Assembly: GCF_001050235.1 (NCBI RefSeq)
Contig: NZ_DF967972.1
Span: 893,028-957,027, forward strand
From: Longilinea arvoryzae
GTDB taxonomy: Bacteria > Chloroflexota > Anaerolineae > Anaerolineales > Anaerolineaceae
Length of the DNA stretch: 64,000 bases
Direction: 5' to 3'
The notes under the pieces were generated by a model. That model was not told the origin of the DNA, ran no database searches, and saw nothing but the letters and a program-made list of their open reading frames with translations. The number at the start of each line of letters is the position of its first letter. Position 1 is the stretch's first letter. Shown piece by piece: positions 5,720 through 14,108 of this stretch. A program made the position numbers and the translations under genes.

Positions 5720-6466
5720 ATGCTGAATAAAGATGGCCCGATGCCCATTTTCTATCAGATTGCGAGCAATCTTCGCGAGTTGATCTACCGCGGCGATTAT
5801 TCCCCTCGTCAAAAATTACCATCTGAAAATGAACTCGCGCTTCACTTTGGCGTGAGTCGCGTGACCATCCGGCACGCGCTGCTGGAGCTGGAGCAAAACC
5901 AGTTCATCTACCGCGAAAAGGGAAAGGGCACTTTCGTCGCGCCGCTGCCGTACAAGGGCTTTCTGGGATTTGGAAGTTTCTCGTACAAATGCCGCCTGCT
6001 GGGGCACACGCCGTCATCCAAAGTGATCCTCTTCGAGGAAAGACCCTCCATCCCCCCGGAAAGCGAAGGAATCTTCGCGATGCTTCAGGAGGAGTGCGAA
6101 CTCAGGCCGTTTTATTACATCGAACGCATCCGCCTGATGGACGGGATTCCGGTTGCTTACGAAAACAACTACCTGCCCAAGCATCGCTATCCAGGCCTGG
6201 AAGAATTCAACCTGGAAACGCAGTCGCTCTACACCTTGATGGAAGAAAAATGGGGGATCATTCCGGCCAAGGCCGACCAATTCTTTTCCGTCGAGCTTGC
6301 CGATGAAACCACAGCCGGATACCTTCAACTTGACCCCGGACAGCCGTTGCTCAAGCTGGCGAGCATCGTGCAGACCGTCAAGAATGAGATGATCGAGTTT
6401 TCGGTCACCACGTACTGCCAACGCTTCTTACCCTATCACGTCCGCCAGCAAAGTTACCAGCTTTAA
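5720..6466 (+). CDS. GntR-family regulator with UTRA effector domain (HutC subfamily)
   Basis: A 248-residue protein of normal length for the subfamily. The N-terminal winged helix (about residues 8-75) contains the GntR signature: PIFYQIASNLRELIYRGDYS, then KLPSENELALHFGVSRVTIR and EKGKGTFVA. The UTRA ligand-binding domain follows (about residues 95-240; ERIRLMDGIPVAYENNYLP, EEKWGI, LKLASIVQTVKNEMIEFSVT). UTRA domains bind phosphorylated sugars or amino-sugar derivatives. It stands just upstream of the ABC transporter and sugar enzyme operon and is the likely regulator of it; frlR/fraR-type regulators hold the same place in Amadori-product operons. Confidence 0.92.
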   Translation: MLNKDGPMPIFYQIASNLRELIYRGDYSPRQKLPSENELALHFGVSRVTIRHALLELEQNQFIYREKGKGTFVAPLPYKGFLGFGSFSYKCRLLGHTPSSKVILFEERPSIPPESEGIFAMLQEECELRPFYYIERIRLMDGIPVAYENNYLPKHRYPGLEEFNLETQSLYTLMEEKWGIIPAKADQFFSVELADETTAGYLQLDPGQPLLKLASIVQTVKNEMIEFSVTTYCQRFLPYHVRQQSYQL

Positions 6467-6688: not shown

Positions 6689-8065
6689 ATGAAGAGAATT
6701 GGTTCCTGCTTGTTAGCCGCTATGCTCATTTGTGTTTTTGTCCTGACGGCCTGCGCTCCGGCTGCCGCGACACAAACCCCCGCCGCAGCAACGGAAGCCC
6801 CGGCTGCCACCGAAGCTCCGGCCGCCACCGAGGCTCCCGCGGCGACTGAAGCTGCCACAACCGGCGCCCCCGTGACCCTGGAATTCTGGGCGTACGCCTC
6901 CATGGTCCAGAGCGGTTTTGGCGAGTACATGAAGGCCCAGATTGCTGACTTCGAAGCTTCCCATCCGAATGTAACCATCAATCTGACCGGGAAGAACGAT
7001 GACGATCTTGTCGCCGGTCTGGTCACCAGCGCGGCCAGCGGCACCATGCCGGACGTGTACATTGACAGCACGGGCAACGGCGGCGCCCTGCTCGCAGCCG
7101 GCGCGGTGGGCAACATTTATGACCGCTGGATGGCAATGCCGCAAGATTTCCGCGACCAGTTCTATCCGGCCAATATCGCCATGGTTACACCGCAGGATGG
7201 TGTGATGTACGCCGTACCCTACACCGGTTATGGCAACCTGATGTATCGGAACCTGACTGTCCTGCGCGCGGCGGGCATCGATCCTTCACAGCCGGTGACC
7301 ACCTGGGACGAATGGCTGGCCCAGATGAAGCAGATCACGGACGCTGGATATACCGCGATCCCGAATATGGCCACAACCTGGTTTGGATTTGGCAGCATTT
7401 ATTCAGGCATCGCAACCCGGGATGAGTGGGGCATCGATTTCGCTAATAACAAGACCCTCATCAATCCGGATGAATGGGCGAAAACGGCTGAATTCCTTAT
7501 CAAAGCGAAGCCCTATACTTCCGAACTACCCGCCCTGGATCAGGGTATGACTGACCAGTTCATTGCCAACCAGTTGGCCTACTACTTCTGCGGCGCCTGG
7601 TGCGATCCGACCTTCCAGGAAGCGAAGAAGACGAGCGGTCTGGATTACGATTGGGCTTTGATCCCAGGAGCTACCGCAGACAAGCACGGCGGCTGCAGCG
7701 GCTACGAACTGATGTCCATCAACACCAAGGGTGCGAATGCCGACCTGGCCTGGGAATTCCTGACCTTCATGGTCGGGAAAGACTCGATGACCAAGATGGC
7801 CGAAGCGGTTGGCCAGTACAATGCCAACAAGGCGGCCATGGAAGCTTCCGCTGCGAACAGCCCGTTGATCGCCATCACCATGAAGGCAGCCGAAGGCGCG
7901 ATTTATAACACACCTCCGTTCTTCATCGAACCCTATCCCACCAATTACATCAGCACCATGCAGGACAACATGACCTCGATTTATGAAGGTCAAATGACCC
8001 CGGCAGAAGGCGCCGCGAAATTGATCGAAGACCTGAACGCCGTCGTCGCGGGACGCAATCAATAG
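6689..8065 (+). CDS. ABC sugar transporter, extracellular substrate-binding lipoprotein (family 1)
   Basis: A 458-residue protein. The signal peptide ends in the lipobox LTAC, with Cys at about residue 22, so the protein is lipid-anchored outside the membrane. A low-complexity linker of APAATE repeats follows (about residues 25-60). The mature domain then starts VTLEFWAYASMVQSGFGEYM, typical of CUT1 binding proteins. Further family features are PDVYIDSTGNGGALLAAGAV and the C-terminal LIEDLNAVV. It delivers a sugar or glycoside to the two permeases downstream. Ligand unknown; the enzyme content of the operon points to an amino sugar or fructosamine. Confidence 0.93.
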   Translation: MKRIGSCLLAAMLICVFVLTACAPAAATQTPAAATEAPAATEAPAATEAPAATEAATTGAPVTLEFWAYASMVQSGFGEYMKAQIADFEASHPNVTINLTGKNDDDLVAGLVTSAASGTMPDVYIDSTGNGGALLAAGAVGNIYDRWMAMPQDFRDQFYPANIAMVTPQDGVMYAVPYTGYGNLMYRNLTVLRAAGIDPSQPVTTWDEWLAQMKQITDAGYTAIPNMATTWFGFGSIYSGIATRDEWGIDFANNKTLINPDEWAKTAEFLIKAKPYTSELPALDQGMTDQFIANQLAYYFCGAWCDPTFQEAKKTSGLDYDWALIPGATADKHGGCSGYELMSINTKGANADLAWEFLTFMVGKDSMTKMAEAVGQYNANKAAMEASAANSPLIAITMKAAEGAIYNTPPFFIEPYPTNYISTMQDNMTSIYEGQMTPAEGAAKLIEDLNAVVAGRNQ

Positions 8066-8381
8066 AGTTGGTTCTTGATTAGCGGTAATTTTGGATAATT
8101 GGTGTCCCCCATTAATGGTTATTATTTCGGTGACCGGACACCCTGGAAAATGGGGGGGACGATTAAATCCCCCCCATTAGGCAGCTCAAGATGACTTTCG
8201 AAGAGCACGGCACGAAGCAACGAAGTCGATGCAAGTCGGCTCTCTTTATCGGATCGAGAATTTCAAATCTGATCCCGCTATATTGAAATTCGCTTTTCCA
8301 ATCGTGATGACGGCGGGTATTTTCCAAAAGACCGGATCAAGCGAAAGTATCCACGGGTTTGGATCTGCAGGAGGTATTACG
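8066..8381 (+). other. Intercistronic region with strong hairpins between binding protein and permease genes
   Basis: This 316-nt gap has no coding sequence. It holds GGTGTCC/GGACACC (8101 and 8136) and a perfect 10-bp stem AATGGGGGGG (8149-8158) with CCCCCCCATT (8169-8178), loop 10 nt. The left GTCCCCCATT (8103-8112) can pair with the same G-run, so two folds compete. Such hairpins commonly protect or partly end the binding-protein message, giving more binding protein than permease. Confidence 0.65.
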
Positions 8382-9272
8382 ATGCATAGATGGTTTTCGA
8401 AAAACATCAAGCATTATCTAATGTTGGCGCCTTTTTTCGTTTTATTCGCCGTCTTCTTTATCTACCCGATTCTCTCGGGGTTCTACATCAGTTTCAACAA
8501 ATGGGACAGCGTTCATCCGGCTCAGTTCGTCGGCCTGACGAATTACATCAATGTCATAAAATCCGCCAATTTTTCCAAGTCATTTCTAAATTTGATTAAA
8601 TATGTAGGCTTAACCATCCCGATCAATATCCTGGTAGCCTTTGGTCTGGCTGTCCTGGTAAATAGTTTTAAAGGGGTATGGTCGAATATTTTCCGCAGCG
8701 CTTATTTTCTGCCGACCATGATGCCGCTCTTTCTGGCGGCTTCGATCTGGCGCTGGTTGTATGCGCCGGATGTAGGTTTTATCAATGTAATTCTGGGACG
8801 ATTTGGGATCGACAGTGTGGGCTGGCTGACCAATCCCAAGATCATGATCTTTTCGTTGATCATCGTGGACGTCTGGATTTCAGCCGGTTTCAATATGATC
8901 ATCCTGCTCACCGGGCTCAAGAATATCCCGGATGTTTATTACGACGCGGCCAAGGTGGACGGGGCCAACAAATTCCAGGAAATCTTCTACATTACCATCC
9001 CACAGCTCGAGCCGATCCTGTTCCTGGTCATCGTATATGGGTTTATTTCCGCCTTGCAGGTTTTCGATGCGCCCTGGTTATTGACGACTTCAAGTTATAC
9101 CGCTTATGGCGGACGATCACAGGCTTTAATGTTTCCGGTCATGGATTTGATGGGCCGCGCCTTCAGCGGTTTAAAGTTTGGACCCGCCTCTGCGTATGGC
9201 TTCATCCTAACGACCTTCATCATGGTCTTGACATCCATCCAGTTCGCCTTACGCAAGCGCAACCAGGCCTGA
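8382..9272 (+). CDS. ABC sugar transporter permease (CUT1, MalF-like)
   Basis: A 296-residue inner-membrane permease with six hydrophobic segments. The N-terminal HYLMLAPFFVLFAVFFIYPI is usual for MalF-type subunits. The EAA loop that docks the ATPase is YYDAAKVDGANKFQEIFYIT followed by IPQLEP (about residues 187-212). I chose the ATG at 8382 because AGGAGG lies 9 nt upstream; the frame is open further upstream but without a ribosome site. It works with the binding protein before it and the permease after it (18 nt away). Confidence 0.92.
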   Translation: MHRWFSKNIKHYLMLAPFFVLFAVFFIYPILSGFYISFNKWDSVHPAQFVGLTNYINVIKSANFSKSFLNLIKYVGLTIPINILVAFGLAVLVNSFKGVWSNIFRSAYFLPTMMPLFLAASIWRWLYAPDVGFINVILGRFGIDSVGWLTNPKIMIFSLIIVDVWISAGFNMIILLTGLKNIPDVYYDAAKVDGANKFQEIFYITIPQLEPILFLVIVYGFISALQVFDAPWLLTTSSYTAYGGRSQALMFPVMDLMGRAFSGLKFGPASAYGFILTTFIMVLTSIQFALRKRNQA

Positions 9273-9290: not shown

Positions 9291-10139
9291 ATGATCAGTA
9301 GATATTCTCATAAAATCATACCCAGCCAGGTCCTTAAATGGATCGTCGCCATGATCATCCTGATTGTGATGGTGTTTCCGATCTGGTGGATGTTCAACGT
9401 CGTTTTTACCGAACCTGGCGTCCCGATTTCGATCAATCCGCGCTTATATCCATCCTCCCTCCAGGCGGGTATCGACAATATTTCTCAGGTGCTTTCCGAC
9501 TCGAAAATCTTGCATGCTTTCCTGATCTCCATTGGTTATGTGGTCTTTCAGGTGATTGGCATTTTGCTGCTTTCCTCGATGGCGGCTTTTGAATTCGCTT
9601 TGTTCAAATTCCCGGGCAAGCGATTCTTGTTCATGCTGGCGCTTTTATCCATGATGATCCCAGCAGCAGTGACGCTCGTCCCAACCTACCTTTTGGTTGT
9701 AAAGATCGGTTGGCTGAACACACTCCAGGGCTTGGTTGTGCCGGGGCTGGCATCGGCTTTCGGCCTGTTTATGATGACCCAGTTCATGGAGAATCTGCCG
9801 CGCGAACTCTTCGACGCCGGGGAAATCGATGGGCTCAATCATTTCGGCCTCTTCTGGCAGATTGCGCTGCCCCTATCGAAGAATGCGATCATCACCCTGG
9901 CCATCCTACAATTCGTGCGCACCTGGGGAAATTACATCTGGCCGCTGGTCATTGCTTCGAACCAGCAGGCCTACACCATCAGTCAGGTCGTAGGTTTATA
10001 CAACAATCCCATGACCTATACGACGGTCAACGTCATCATGGCGACCAACCTGCTGGCTACATTGCCAACCATCCTCTTCTACTTCTTCTTCCAACGCTTC
10101 ATCCTGGAAGGGATCGCCATGACGGGCATCAAAGGCTAG
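9291..10139 (+). CDS. ABC sugar transporter permease (CUT1, MalG-like)
   Basis: A 282-residue second permease subunit with six membrane segments. The EAA motif (LFDAGEIDGLNHFGLFWQIA, then LPLSKNA, about residues 173-200) contacts the cytoplasmic ATPase. The C-terminus FQRFILEGIAMTGIKG is the classic MalG ending. No ATP-binding subunit is encoded in this operon. As in many CUT1 systems of Gram-positive bacteria, a shared MsmX/MsmK-type ATPase encoded elsewhere would be needed; this is inference. Confidence 0.93.
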   Translation: MISRYSHKIIPSQVLKWIVAMIILIVMVFPIWWMFNVVFTEPGVPISINPRLYPSSLQAGIDNISQVLSDSKILHAFLISIGYVVFQVIGILLLSSMAAFEFALFKFPGKRFLFMLALLSMMIPAAVTLVPTYLLVVKIGWLNTLQGLVVPGLASAFGLFMMTQFMENLPRELFDAGEIDGLNHFGLFWQIALPLSKNAIITLAILQFVRTWGNYIWPLVIASNQQAYTISQVVGLYNNPMTYTTVNVIMATNLLATLPTILFYFFFQRFILEGIAMTGIKG

Positions 10140-10206
10140 CCGCTTTATCGACCTGGAGTTTTCCAGGCTTATCCATGGAATCATTTCATTAACGTGAGAG
10201 GTAACT

Positions 10207-11082
10207 ATGACGTCAAGAATCGATCAGAAAAAGTTATTCGAATACTGCCGAATCCCGGTGGACCAATTGGAGAATCACCCCGATTCGCGCATCAAGATCA
10301 AGATCTTTGATAAAAGCACCCAGACCATGGAATTCGCCGGCAACATGATGACCGAAGAGGTCATCGCCAACAACAAGGCCGGCAAGCCAACCCGCTGGGT
10401 GCTGCCGGCCGGCCCAAGCGAGCAATATGAGACCTTTATTCGCCGCGTGAACACCGAAAGAATCAGCCTGAAGAACGTGCACGTTTGCCTGATGGACGAC
10501 GTTTTGGATTGGAACTGCCGGCCGTTTCCCCTGGATCACCGGTATTTCAGCGCCGAGGGACGCATGCTGCGCGGCTTCTTCAGCCGCTTCGATCCGGAGC
10601 TGGCCATCCCGCCCGAGCAGGTCCATTTCCCGCGCTATAATGACCTGGATGCGATGGACGAAACTGTCGATCGGATGGGCGGGTTCGACACCGTTTACGG
10701 CGGATTGGGCTTTACCGGGCTGGTCGCTTACTGCGAAGCGCCGCGTTCCCCCTGGTACTCGGTCACCGAAGAAGATTACTGCCAGATGAAGACCCGCATC
10801 TTTCCCATCAACGAGGATACGATCATCGCTTCAGCCGAGCGCAGGTTCGGCGGCCTGACCCACATGATGCCGCCGTTGGCCATCTCGATCGGTTTCAAAT
10901 CGCTTCTCAAGACCCAACGGGTGGTATTCATGAGCACGACCGGCGCCTGGAAACGGACCGCGGTGCGCGTGCTGATGTTCTGCGAGCCAACGGTGGAATA
11001 TCCGGCGACCCTGTTTACCGATAAGGTCGAGGTCACTTTACTGACCGACCGCAACACGGCCGCCTGCCCGCTTTCGGATTAG
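10207..11082 (+). CDS. NagB-like (glucosamine-6-phosphate deaminase superfamily) protein with altered active site
   Basis: A 291-residue protein with the NagB/RpiA-type Rossmann fold. Recognisable blocks are RWVLPAGPSEQYETFIRRV (about 64-82), CLMDDVLDWN (about 94-103, equivalent to the NMDEY block) and GGLGFTGLVAYCEAPR (about 165-180, equivalent to GIGxDGHIAFNEP). In the last block the catalytic Asp and His of true deaminases are replaced by Thr170 and Leu172, while Glu177 is kept. It therefore probably does not carry out the standard isomerising deamination. It sits between the permease and the PfkB kinase genes, so a role on a related sugar phosphate, or as a sugar-phosphate sensor, is likely. 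Confidence 0.75.
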   Translation: MTSRIDQKKLFEYCRIPVDQLENHPDSRIKIKIFDKSTQTMEFAGNMMTEEVIANNKAGKPTRWVLPAGPSEQYETFIRRVNTERISLKNVHVCLMDDVLDWNCRPFPLDHRYFSAEGRMLRGFFSRFDPELAIPPEQVHFPRYNDLDAMDETVDRMGGFDTVYGGLGFTGLVAYCEAPRSPWYSVTEEDYCQMKTRIFPINEDTIIASAERRFGGLTHMMPPLAISIGFKSLLKTQRVVFMSTTGAWKRTAVRVLMFCEPTVEYPATLFTDKVEVTLLTDRNTAACPLSD

Positions 11083-11101: not shown

Positions 11102-12046
11102 ATGGGATCATCCCCGGATATCGTGGTGCTGGGACATCATGGCTGCGGCACGAGCATCGTGCGCGTGCACCATATCCCGGTCGCGGGTGAGACGATCACC
11201 GCCTGGGACAGCCAGCACGTGAAGGACGGCGGGAAGGGTTCGCACCAGGCCATCGTGATCAGCCGGCTGGGCGGCAATTCGGCGTTTATCGGTAAGATCG
11301 GCAGCGATGAGATGAGCGAGGCTTCGCGGGAATGGCTGGTGGAGGATAAGGTCAACATCCGGCATCTCCTGCGCAGCGACCTGAAGATGCCGAAGGCCGG
11401 CCTCATCATGATGGACGACAACGGCGTCAATACCATCGTCAGCAGTAAAGGCGTGCGCAACACCCTGACCTTCGAAGAGGTCAGGCCCTGCATCGAGGAC
11501 TTTAAATCCGCGAAGATGTTCATCACGGGTTTTGAGATCCCTGAAAAAACCGCGCTGGCTTCGGCAAAACTGGCCAAGGAACTGGGCATGTTCGTCATTT
11601 TGAACCCCGCGCCGGCCCCGGAGGAACCGATGGGCGTCCTGGACTACGTCGACGTCATCATCCCCAACGAAACCGAAGCCAAGAGCATCGTCGGCATCGA
11701 TCTGCACGCTGAGATCGACCCGATCGAGGTCGCCAAAAAGATCCGGGAGATGTACAAGGTGGGCGTGGTGATCATCACCATGGGCGGGAGCGGCGTCTTC
11801 GGTTACGACGGCCGGGATTCCTGGAGCTTGCCGCCGGTTCCGGTCGACGTGGTCAATACCACCGGCGCAGGTGATGCCTTCATCGGCAGTTTTTCCTGGG
11901 CGTTATTCAACGGCAAATCCATCCCGGAAGCCATGCAATGGGGCAACTATTACGCGGCCCTGTCGGTCACCCGCGCAGGAACCATCACTTCCTTCCCGTA
12001 TTTGGACGAGGTCGAGGCTTTCATCAAGGAACGCAAACAAGGTTAG
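11102..12046 (+). CDS. PfkB-family carbohydrate kinase (ribokinase-like)
   Basis: A 314-residue kinase. The N-terminal DIVVLGHHGCG and DGGKGSHQAIVISRLGGNSA (about residues 35-60) form the first PfkB signature and the sugar pocket. The C-terminal VNTTGAGDAFIGSFSW (about 252-267) is the second signature, with the GAGD anion hole and catalytic Asp. It phosphorylates a sugar or sugar-like substrate with ATP in the cytoplasm. Together with the SIS protein downstream it recalls FrlD and FrlB, which phosphorylate and then cleave fructosamines. The exact substrate is not decided by the sequence. Confidence 0.9.
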   Translation: MGSSPDIVVLGHHGCGTSIVRVHHIPVAGETITAWDSQHVKDGGKGSHQAIVISRLGGNSAFIGKIGSDEMSEASREWLVEDKVNIRHLLRSDLKMPKAGLIMMDDNGVNTIVSSKGVRNTLTFEEVRPCIEDFKSAKMFITGFEIPEKTALASAKLAKELGMFVILNPAPAPEEPMGVLDYVDVIIPNETEAKSIVGIDLHAEIDPIEVAKKIREMYKVGVVIITMGGSGVFGYDGRDSWSLPPVPVDVVNTTGAGDAFIGSFSWALFNGKSIPEAMQWGNYYAALSVTRAGTITSFPYLDEVEAFIKERKQG

Positions 12047-12192: not shown

Positions 12193-13338
12193 ATGACAAA
12201 TTTCGATCGGATCAAGAATCGATTCCCGAATGGAGAAGTTCGGACTGAACCGCCTTTCTACATGGTGGAGGCGATCGCGGACATTCCCGGCTGCCTGGAA
12301 GCCTGTATGAGCGCTGACCGGCTGGACTCGATGCGCGCGGCGCTGCAGAAATTGAAGGTGACCCGCGTCATCGCCATGGGATGCGGGACGTCCTTCAATT
12401 CGTGCCAGGCGGTGGCTTCGGCCTGCCATACGTTATTGAACATCCCAACCGCGGCTTACGACGCGTTCGATTTCTGCCTGGAAGAGTCGCCGGAAGTTGA
12501 CGCATCGACCCTGGCGATTTCGATCAGCCATTCCGGCGAGACGCTGATCACCTGCCAGGCGCAGGAAAAAGCCAGAGGGCTGAAGGCGTTCACGATCGGG
12601 ATTTCCGGCGACGCGGGGTCGCGTCTGGCCCGATCGGCCGACCTGGCTCTGACGGACCCGTACGGGCAGGAGACTCCCTTCGGAAAGACGCGCAGCTACC
12701 TCAGCAATGCCTTCCTTGGAATCCTGGCAGCGCTGGCAACGGCTCCGGCCGAAACCCAGGGGGAATTCCTGGGCCACGCCCGCCAGATGACCGGCCTGCT
12801 GCGCCAGAACATGAAGACCTGGGAAAGCGCTGCCAGGGTTATCGCCGAAGAGTGGCGCGGTGCGACCACCCATTACCATCTCACCGGCTATGGCATTCAG
12901 AAGGGCAACGCCGATGAAATCGGTTTGAAGATCATGGAAGTCCTCGGCGAGAGCGCGACCAGCCTGGGGCTGGAGGAGTTCATGCACGGCCCGTATGCCA
13001 GCTTCCGCAAGGACATGGGCATCTTGATCTTCCAGACCGATCCAAGGTCGCTGGAAAAGGCCTTGATGGTCGCCCGGGGCGTGGCCATCTCGGGCGCAAA
13101 AGGGGTGGTGATCACGGACCGGGTGGACGCGAGCTGGCCTGAAAATGTGAAGGTCATCGGACTGCCGTGCGTCGAACAGCCCCGGCAACTGGCGCTGTTC
13201 CCGGCGGCCATGGCAGCCCAATATCTGGTCTACTTCCTGGCACTCAGTAAGGGGATGATCCCGGACATCAACGGCTTCGAGTTCCACCCCGAACTGCGGA
13301 ACGTGGTCGACATTTTCTTCCCGCCGGGCACACATTGA
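12193..13338 (+). CDS. Double-SIS-domain sugar isomerase/deglycase (FrlB/AgaS/GlmS-C-like)
   Basis: A 381-residue cytoplasmic protein made of two SIS domains without the glutaminase domain of GlmS. The first SIS shows VTRVIAMGCGTSFNSCQAVA and SISHSGETLITC. The second shows the catalytic helix with Glu249 and the loop EEFMHGP with His265. This 16-residue Glu-His spacing is that of GlmS and of fructosamine-6-phosphate deglycases. It would isomerise or cleave a phosphorylated amino-sugar adduct. The ATG at 12193 follows AAGGAAAAGGA and is preferred; the longer upstream frame covers the hairpin region. It ends 1 nt beyond a possible TTG start of the next gene. Confidence 0.88.
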   Translation: MTNFDRIKNRFPNGEVRTEPPFYMVEAIADIPGCLEACMSADRLDSMRAALQKLKVTRVIAMGCGTSFNSCQAVASACHTLLNIPTAAYDAFDFCLEESPEVDASTLAISISHSGETLITCQAQEKARGLKAFTIGISGDAGSRLARSADLALTDPYGQETPFGKTRSYLSNAFLGILAALATAPAETQGEFLGHARQMTGLLRQNMKTWESAARVIAEEWRGATTHYHLTGYGIQKGNADEIGLKIMEVLGESATSLGLEEFMHGPYASFRKDMGILIFQTDPRSLEKALMVARGVAISGAKGVVITDRVDASWPENVKVIGLPCVEQPRQLALFPAAMAAQYLVYFLALSKGMIPDINGFEFHPELRNVVDIFFPPGTH

Positions 13339-13358: not shown

Positions 13359-14108
13359 ATGAATTTACTGGGTATCGATATCGGGCGCACATCGATCAAA
13401 TACGGCCGGGTCCGGCTGGAGAACGGGATCGAAGTCATGGATTTCGACCAGATCCCGATTTCGCAGACTTCGCGCTACGCCGGCTACCGGGACGCGTTGA
13501 TTCACCTGCTGCGGACGGTGCCCGGTTTTCGAGCCGTTGGGGTGGGTTTCCCGTGCGTGATCCGCCAGAACCGGGTTTACAGCCGGGACGTCGATTTCGA
13601 CGGAATCTGGTCCGAAGTCCAGGCGTTTCTGGAGCCGTCCGGGGCGCCCTGTTTCGCGCTCAACGACGCCGACGCGGCCGGGATGGCCGAAATCACGCGT
13701 CCGGAAGCCGGGGACCTGCGCCGCGGGGCGACGATCGTGCTGACCCTGGGCACGGGGATCGGCTCGGCAATCTTCCTGGATGGGAAGCTGCTCCCCAACA
13801 CCGAACTGGGCCGCATCGAGTTACACGGCGGGCTGGCCGAGCAGTACTGCGCGGCTTCGGTGCGCACGCGGGAGGGCTTGTCTTTCGAGGCCTGGGCCGG
13901 CCGTTTGCAGGAATACCTGGCCGAAGTGGACGAACTGTTCGCGCCGGATCACCTGGTGCTGGGCGGCGGGATCAGCGCGGATTTCGAGCAGTACCGCGCG
14001 GGTTTGAAGACCCACGCCGATCTGCGCCCGGCGCACTACTGCAACCAGGCCGGCGTCATTGGCGCGGCCATGTTCGCGGCAGGGCGTTTGCAGGATGGCG
14101 TTGGATAA
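13359..14108 (+). CDS. ROK-family sugar kinase, polyphosphate-glucokinase-like
   Basis: A 249-residue kinase of the ASKHA fold. The phosphate-1 motif is LGIDIGRTSIKYGRV (residues 3-17). ALNDADAAGMAE carries the catalytic Asp and is followed by TLGTGIGSAIFLDG. The block PNTELGRIELHGG replaces the ELGH seen in typical polyphosphate glucokinases, with Arg for His. The family phosphorylates glucose or close analogues using ATP or polyphosphate. The ATG at 13359 has AGGA 8 nt upstream. A TTG at 13335 overlapping the previous stop is the alternative. It is the last gene of the operon and is followed by a strong terminator. Confidence 0.82.
   Translation: MNLLGIDIGRTSIKYGRVRLENGIEVMDFDQIPISQTSRYAGYRDALIHLLRTVPGFRAVGVGFPCVIRQNRVYSRDVDFDGIWSEVQAFLEPSGAPCFALNDADAAGMAEITRPEAGDLRRGATIVLTLGTGIGSAIFLDGKLLPNTELGRIELHGGLAEQYCAASVRTREGLSFEAWAGRLQEYLAEVDELFAPDHLVLGGGISADFEQYRAGLKTHADLRPAHYCNQAGVIGAAMFAAGRLQDGVG

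Follow-up and report, generated by a model that had tools for sequence, protein, structure and literature searches.

A NagB-like protein that lacks the ring-opening histidine in a sugar operon of Longilinea arvoryzae

The general base of glucosamine-6-phosphate (GlcN6P) deaminase, NagB, is normally assigned to D72 (Escherichia coli numbering, as throughout for NagB unless stated). Simulations of the S. mutans enzyme indicate that Lys194, Thr38 and Ser37 hold the phosphate and that His130 touches the sugar (PMC8369159); we take Lys194 as K208, Thr38 and Ser37 as the phosphate loop and His130 as H143. In E. coli NagB, the catalytic His143 is contacted by Glu148 (PMC4008608). The fold extends beyond the deaminases: 6-phosphogluconolactonases form the PF01182 branch of the superfamily, and the sensor domains of SorC/DeoR-type regulators (LsrR, CggR and DeoR) are NagB-like in fold and bind sugar phosphates but catalyse no reaction. 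Here we describe a NagB-like protein encoded in a 64,000-nucleotide stretch of the L. arvoryzae genome (the window). It resembles NagB (TIGR00502; E. coli 1dea and B. subtilis 2bkv) in its fold over about 240 residues, in the equivalents of D72, E148 and K208 and in its sugar operon setting, but lacks His143, has D141 replaced, carries Asp for E73 and Cys for N147, and differs further in a phosphate loop that is two residues shorter, a DW..R insert after D72, a longer lid and a score far below the NagB cut-off.

An intact NagB homologue

The gene lies in a co-directional run that comprises a GntR/UTRA regulator, a solute-binding protein, two permeases, the NagB-like gene, a PfkB kinase, a SIS protein and a short ROK kinase (Table 1). 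As the initial annotation had held, the gene is intact, and its 291-residue open reading frame has a ribosome-binding site, the Shine–Dalgarno-like GAGAGG at 10196-10201, five bases 5′ of the ATG. Descent from the NagB fold, also proposed there, is borne out by three comparisons. The single sequence matched 2bkv in a phmmer search of PDB chains (E = 2e-7), a 46-row family profile matched NagB chains at E = 5e-38, and an AlphaFold2 model (mean pLDDT 94.4) aligned to 2bkv with Z 28.8 over 234 residues and to 1dea with Z 28.4. We therefore regard the homology as secure, despite scores below the cut-offs of both PF01182 (11.6 bits against 27) and the NCBIfam nagB model TIGR00502 (53.8 bits against 236.9). 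6-Phosphogluconolactonase shares the superfamily fold (Z up to 22.9) but is not the best superfamily match: both the profile (2e-4, against 5e-38 for NagB chains) and the structure match it less well than NagB, and the likely 6-phosphogluconolactonase of this genome is a separate gene.

Table 1. Features of the operon and of the NagB-like gene, in window coordinates
Feature	Coordinates	Strand	Basis
GntR/UTRA (HutC-type) regulator	5720..6466	+	PF00392, PF07702
Sugar ABC transporter solute-binding protein (SBP)	6689..8065	+	PF13416/PF01547
Sugar ABC transporter permease 1, start uncertain	8229..9272	+	ORF; homologues beside SBP in L048, L049, L029; sequence reading
Sugar ABC transporter permease 2	9291..10139	+	ORF; homologues beside SBP; sequence reading
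NagB-like protein, window clade, 291 aa	10207..11082	+	Intact ORF; NagB homology; Shine–Dalgarno-like GAGAGG
Codons of D97-D98 (E. coli NagB D72-E73; D72 retained as D97, E73 replaced by D98)	10495..10500	+	Alignment mapping
Altered catalytic block YGGLGFTGLVAYCEAP: T170, L172, C176, E177 (E. coli D141, H143, N147, E148)	10696..10743	+	Alignment
Codon of K249 (phosphate-contacting K208 of E. coli NagB)	10951..10953	+	Alignment; S. mutans NagB Lys194 (PMC8369159)
PfkB / ribokinase-like sugar kinase, 314 aa, 19 bases downstream of NagB-like gene	11102..12046	+	PF00294 171 bits; TIGR02152 239.5 against cut-off 299.65
SIS double-domain protein, GlmS isomerase-like, start inferred	12193..13338	+	PF01380; TIGR01135 95.9 bits, below cut-off
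Short ROK-family kinase, polyphosphate-glucose phosphotransferase-like, start inferred	13359..14108	+	PF00480; NF045942 189.7 bits, cut-off 250

Catalytic residues and the clade that shares the changes

The block that corresponds to GxGxDGHxxFNEP of NagB reads GLGFTGLVAYCEAP in the window protein. Alignment to E. coli NagB pairs D72 with D97, E73 with D98, D141 with T170, H143 with L172, N147 with C176, E148 with E177 and K208 with K249, which agrees with the initial annotation in placing Thr170 and Leu172 at the Asp and His positions with Glu177 retained. That annotation was mistaken, however, in naming the Thr170 site as that of the general-base Asp, which is D72 and is retained as D97. Sequence mapping gave no second Asp/His pair aligned to the catalytic block, and the structure, profile and model alignments put no catalytic His elsewhere; a misalignment that hides the catalytic His is thus unsupported. 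Nothing in the window protein corresponds to residues 43-44 of the phosphate loop (41-44, Gly-Ser/Thr), and the family has LPVGP-- at this site. At the R172 column the window protein has E211, with R212 adjacent, and the profile alignment sets the Arg one residue later, which makes R212 a candidate equivalent by a one-residue shift; R197 was rejected as the equivalent, as it aligns with R158.

A set of five sequences, which we call the window clade, consists of the window gene, its paralogue in the same genome (L029) and the genes at L030, L048 and L049. They form one branch (SH-aLRT 96 with five rows and 99 with four), and identity to the window protein is 48-67% among the other four, with the paralogue at 67%. 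D98, L172 and C176 are present in all five, whereas the main-group rows outside the clade have H172 and E98 in 56 of 56 and N176 in 55 of 56. Because the three substitutions are common to five sequences and the other 56 have H172 and E98, chance is excluded as an explanation for the loss of the His. Nine positions are specific to the clade, five of which fall in catalytic blocks (hypergeometric p = 0.01, with the blocks picked post hoc). All rows examined retain D97; E177 is invariant across the main group, and K249 occurs in each of the five window-clade sequences.

Loss of Asp141 was considered as the key change and rejected, as the Asp is missing from every main-group row and from the B. 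subtilis NagB structure 2bkv, which has GIGRNGHIGFNEP, that is Asn, at this position; D141 is therefore no general catalytic requirement. The informative signal is the clade-specific loss of His143, accompanied by the changes of E73 to Asp and N147 to Cys.

The wider family reaches across several phyla of bacteria and also includes sequences from Haloarcula and from a Brockarchaeota metagenome-assembled genome. Relatives turned up at 58 loci in many phyla, as well as on Vibrio and Haloarcula plasmids. Within Chloroflexota, relatives occur in 18 of 400 genomes at E ≤ 1e-5, the weakest matches being NagB-like but outside the family. In family members the phosphate loop is two residues shorter than in NagB, and scores fall far under NagB cut-offs; where annotations were seen, they read hypothetical protein or 6-phosphogluconolactonase, and a literature search found no described relative. 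The wider family (for example, Vibrio nigripulchritudo L025, Halobacillus L083/L084 and Haloarcula L026) shares with the window clade the shortened phosphate loop, a MDEYLDWxGR-type motif and the replacement of D141, but retains His143 and Asn147. An additional paralogue group of seven rows retains the His and has often lost Glu148.

NagB-like genes of different subgroups also occur as adjoining or close pairs (L081:7085-8789, L057:5782-8852, L065:5966-8864, L026:8916-10774 and L027:8952-10777). The second gene retains His143 in all five pairs, and in four it has D, D, S or L at the Glu148 site. Such pairs raise the idea of a mixed oligomer.

Gene neighbourhoods

The neighbourhood of PfkB, SIS and ROK genes named in the initial annotation is shared in part. 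A PfkB gene occurs near the NagB-like gene at all five window-clade loci, within 22 bases at four and at 4.8 kb in L030. SIS and ROK genes are present at three (the window, L048 and L029) and were absent from the stretch read at L049 and L030. The same SIS/ROK set as in the window occurs, divergent, at L048; that of L029 is of more distant types, lies upstream and is accompanied by hydantoinase A/B genes. In this paralogue operon (L029:351-11815), the hydantoinase A and B genes, which match caprolactamase-like models below cut-off, lie between the SIS gene and the ABC transporter. The association of K249 with PfkB (Fisher p = 6e-10) was rejected as independent evidence, as it reflects one or two evolutionary events.

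E. coli RbsK has a SINAD motif that is missing from the PfkB kinases of the clade; their sugar therefore need not be ribose, and a plain ribose pathway was rejected on the same ground. Unlike the window clade, the wider family mostly has no PfkB nearby; its neighbours are instead Gfo/Idh/MocA oxidoreductases, GH4 enzymes and amidohydrolases or, in Vibrio, genes for nucleoside hydrolase, an adenosylhomocysteinase-like protein and adenosine deaminase. On the V. nigripulchritudo plasmid (L025:4968-12194), these three nucleoside genes stand with a ribokinase, a DeoR regulator, the NagB-like protein and a nucleoside transporter, a cluster that suggests an unusual nucleoside-sugar pathway.

Possible functions of the window protein

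Given that the fold and the main catalytic acid are retained and the ring-opening His is lost, the window protein probably acts as an enzyme on another sugar phosphate rather than as a true NagB. With moderate confidence, we propose an active NagB-fold enzyme that is not a GlcN6P deaminase and that acts on a kinase-made sugar phosphate without enzyme-assisted ring opening; catalysis, substrate class and residue roles are all what we infer from the comparisons above. In this proposal, the protein belongs to a separate family in which the 6-phosphate loop of NagB would first have been shortened by two residues, and the window clade would then have lost the ring-opening His while keeping D97 (the C2 proton shuttle), E177 and the phosphate-contacting K249. 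Retention of the Asp, Glu and Lys together with loss of the His fits a substrate that can react without help in opening its ring. What the kinase next door makes is a plausible candidate: the ribokinase-like PfkB would yield a phosphorylated ketose or a sugar phosphate already in open-chain form. D97 would shift a proton between neighbouring carbons, in an isomerisation or epimerisation, and E177 and possibly Cys176 would assist it. A bolder version, which we put forward tentatively and think rather doubtful, is that the new clade uses the C176-E177 pair and Asp97 on the NagB scaffold to convert a sugar phosphate in a way that NagB is not known to do. A dedicated PfkB would act before it in what would be an uncharacterised route of sugar catabolism.

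The initial annotation had offered a different reaction or a regulatory binding role. The latter would make the window protein a non-catalytic sugar-phosphate sensor or a regulatory subunit, for example of the PfkB kinase or the SIS enzyme, much like the NagB-fold domains of SorC/DeoR-type regulators. The lost ring-opening His is compatible with lost catalysis, a binding-only protein could show the same loss, and the fold is common to the sensor domains of LsrR, DeoR and CggR (Z about 11-12). We nevertheless find this role unlikely, and less favoured than a different reaction, as the equivalents of D72, E148 and K208 are all retained and are fixed in the five clade members. The model is also nearest to catalytic NagB, its Z of 28.8 being far above that of the sensor domains (about 12), and no helix-turn-helix or other DNA-binding domain was found in the window protein: PF01182 was the sole Pfam match up to E = 1, and the NagB alignment begins at residue 29, after an N-terminal stretch too short for such a domain.

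NagB-like chemistry might instead persist: the window protein would still deaminate or isomerise an amino-sugar phosphate, with Cys176 or spontaneous opening of the ring making up for the lost His. The retained D72 and E148 equivalents would suit such an enzyme, as would the GlmS-like SIS protein and the ROK kinase of the operon and a genome that has a nagA-like gene above cut-off (L130, G000:C1:1700626-1701696) and no nagB above cut-off. That gene lies away from the operon, however, while the clade adjoins PfkB; with residues 43-44 of the 6-phosphate loop missing and a score so far short of the NagB cut-off, we judge persistence improbable. The same nagA and nagB content means that GlcN6P deamination in this genome may use a SIS-type enzyme.

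A decaying or neutral pseudo-enzyme, to which the missing NagB catalytic residues might point, is highly improbable given the intact reading frame with its ribosome-binding site, identical substitutions fixed at five loci despite only 48-67% identity to the query, and low dN/dS. Among the estimable pairs with the window gene (most other pairs were saturated), dN/dS was 0.135 against the paralogue L029 and 0.243 against L030, which shows purifying selection and argues against decay, and nonsynonymous divergence of the NagB-like gene was lower than that of the adjacent PfkB gene in each comparable pair. Together with the clade-fixed residues and the intact operon, these values support the original view of a changed function.

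For L. arvoryzae, calling the two genome copies NagB would lead to a wrong pathway reconstruction. The label misleads because these copies are the only matches to the nagB model in the genome besides the likely 6-phosphogluconolactonase (L001), which adjoins a glucose-6-phosphate dehydrogenase-like reading frame. For the superfamily, the nested losses, which took part of the phosphate loop first and the ring-opening His second, provide a stepwise natural series for probing the role of each NagB residue.
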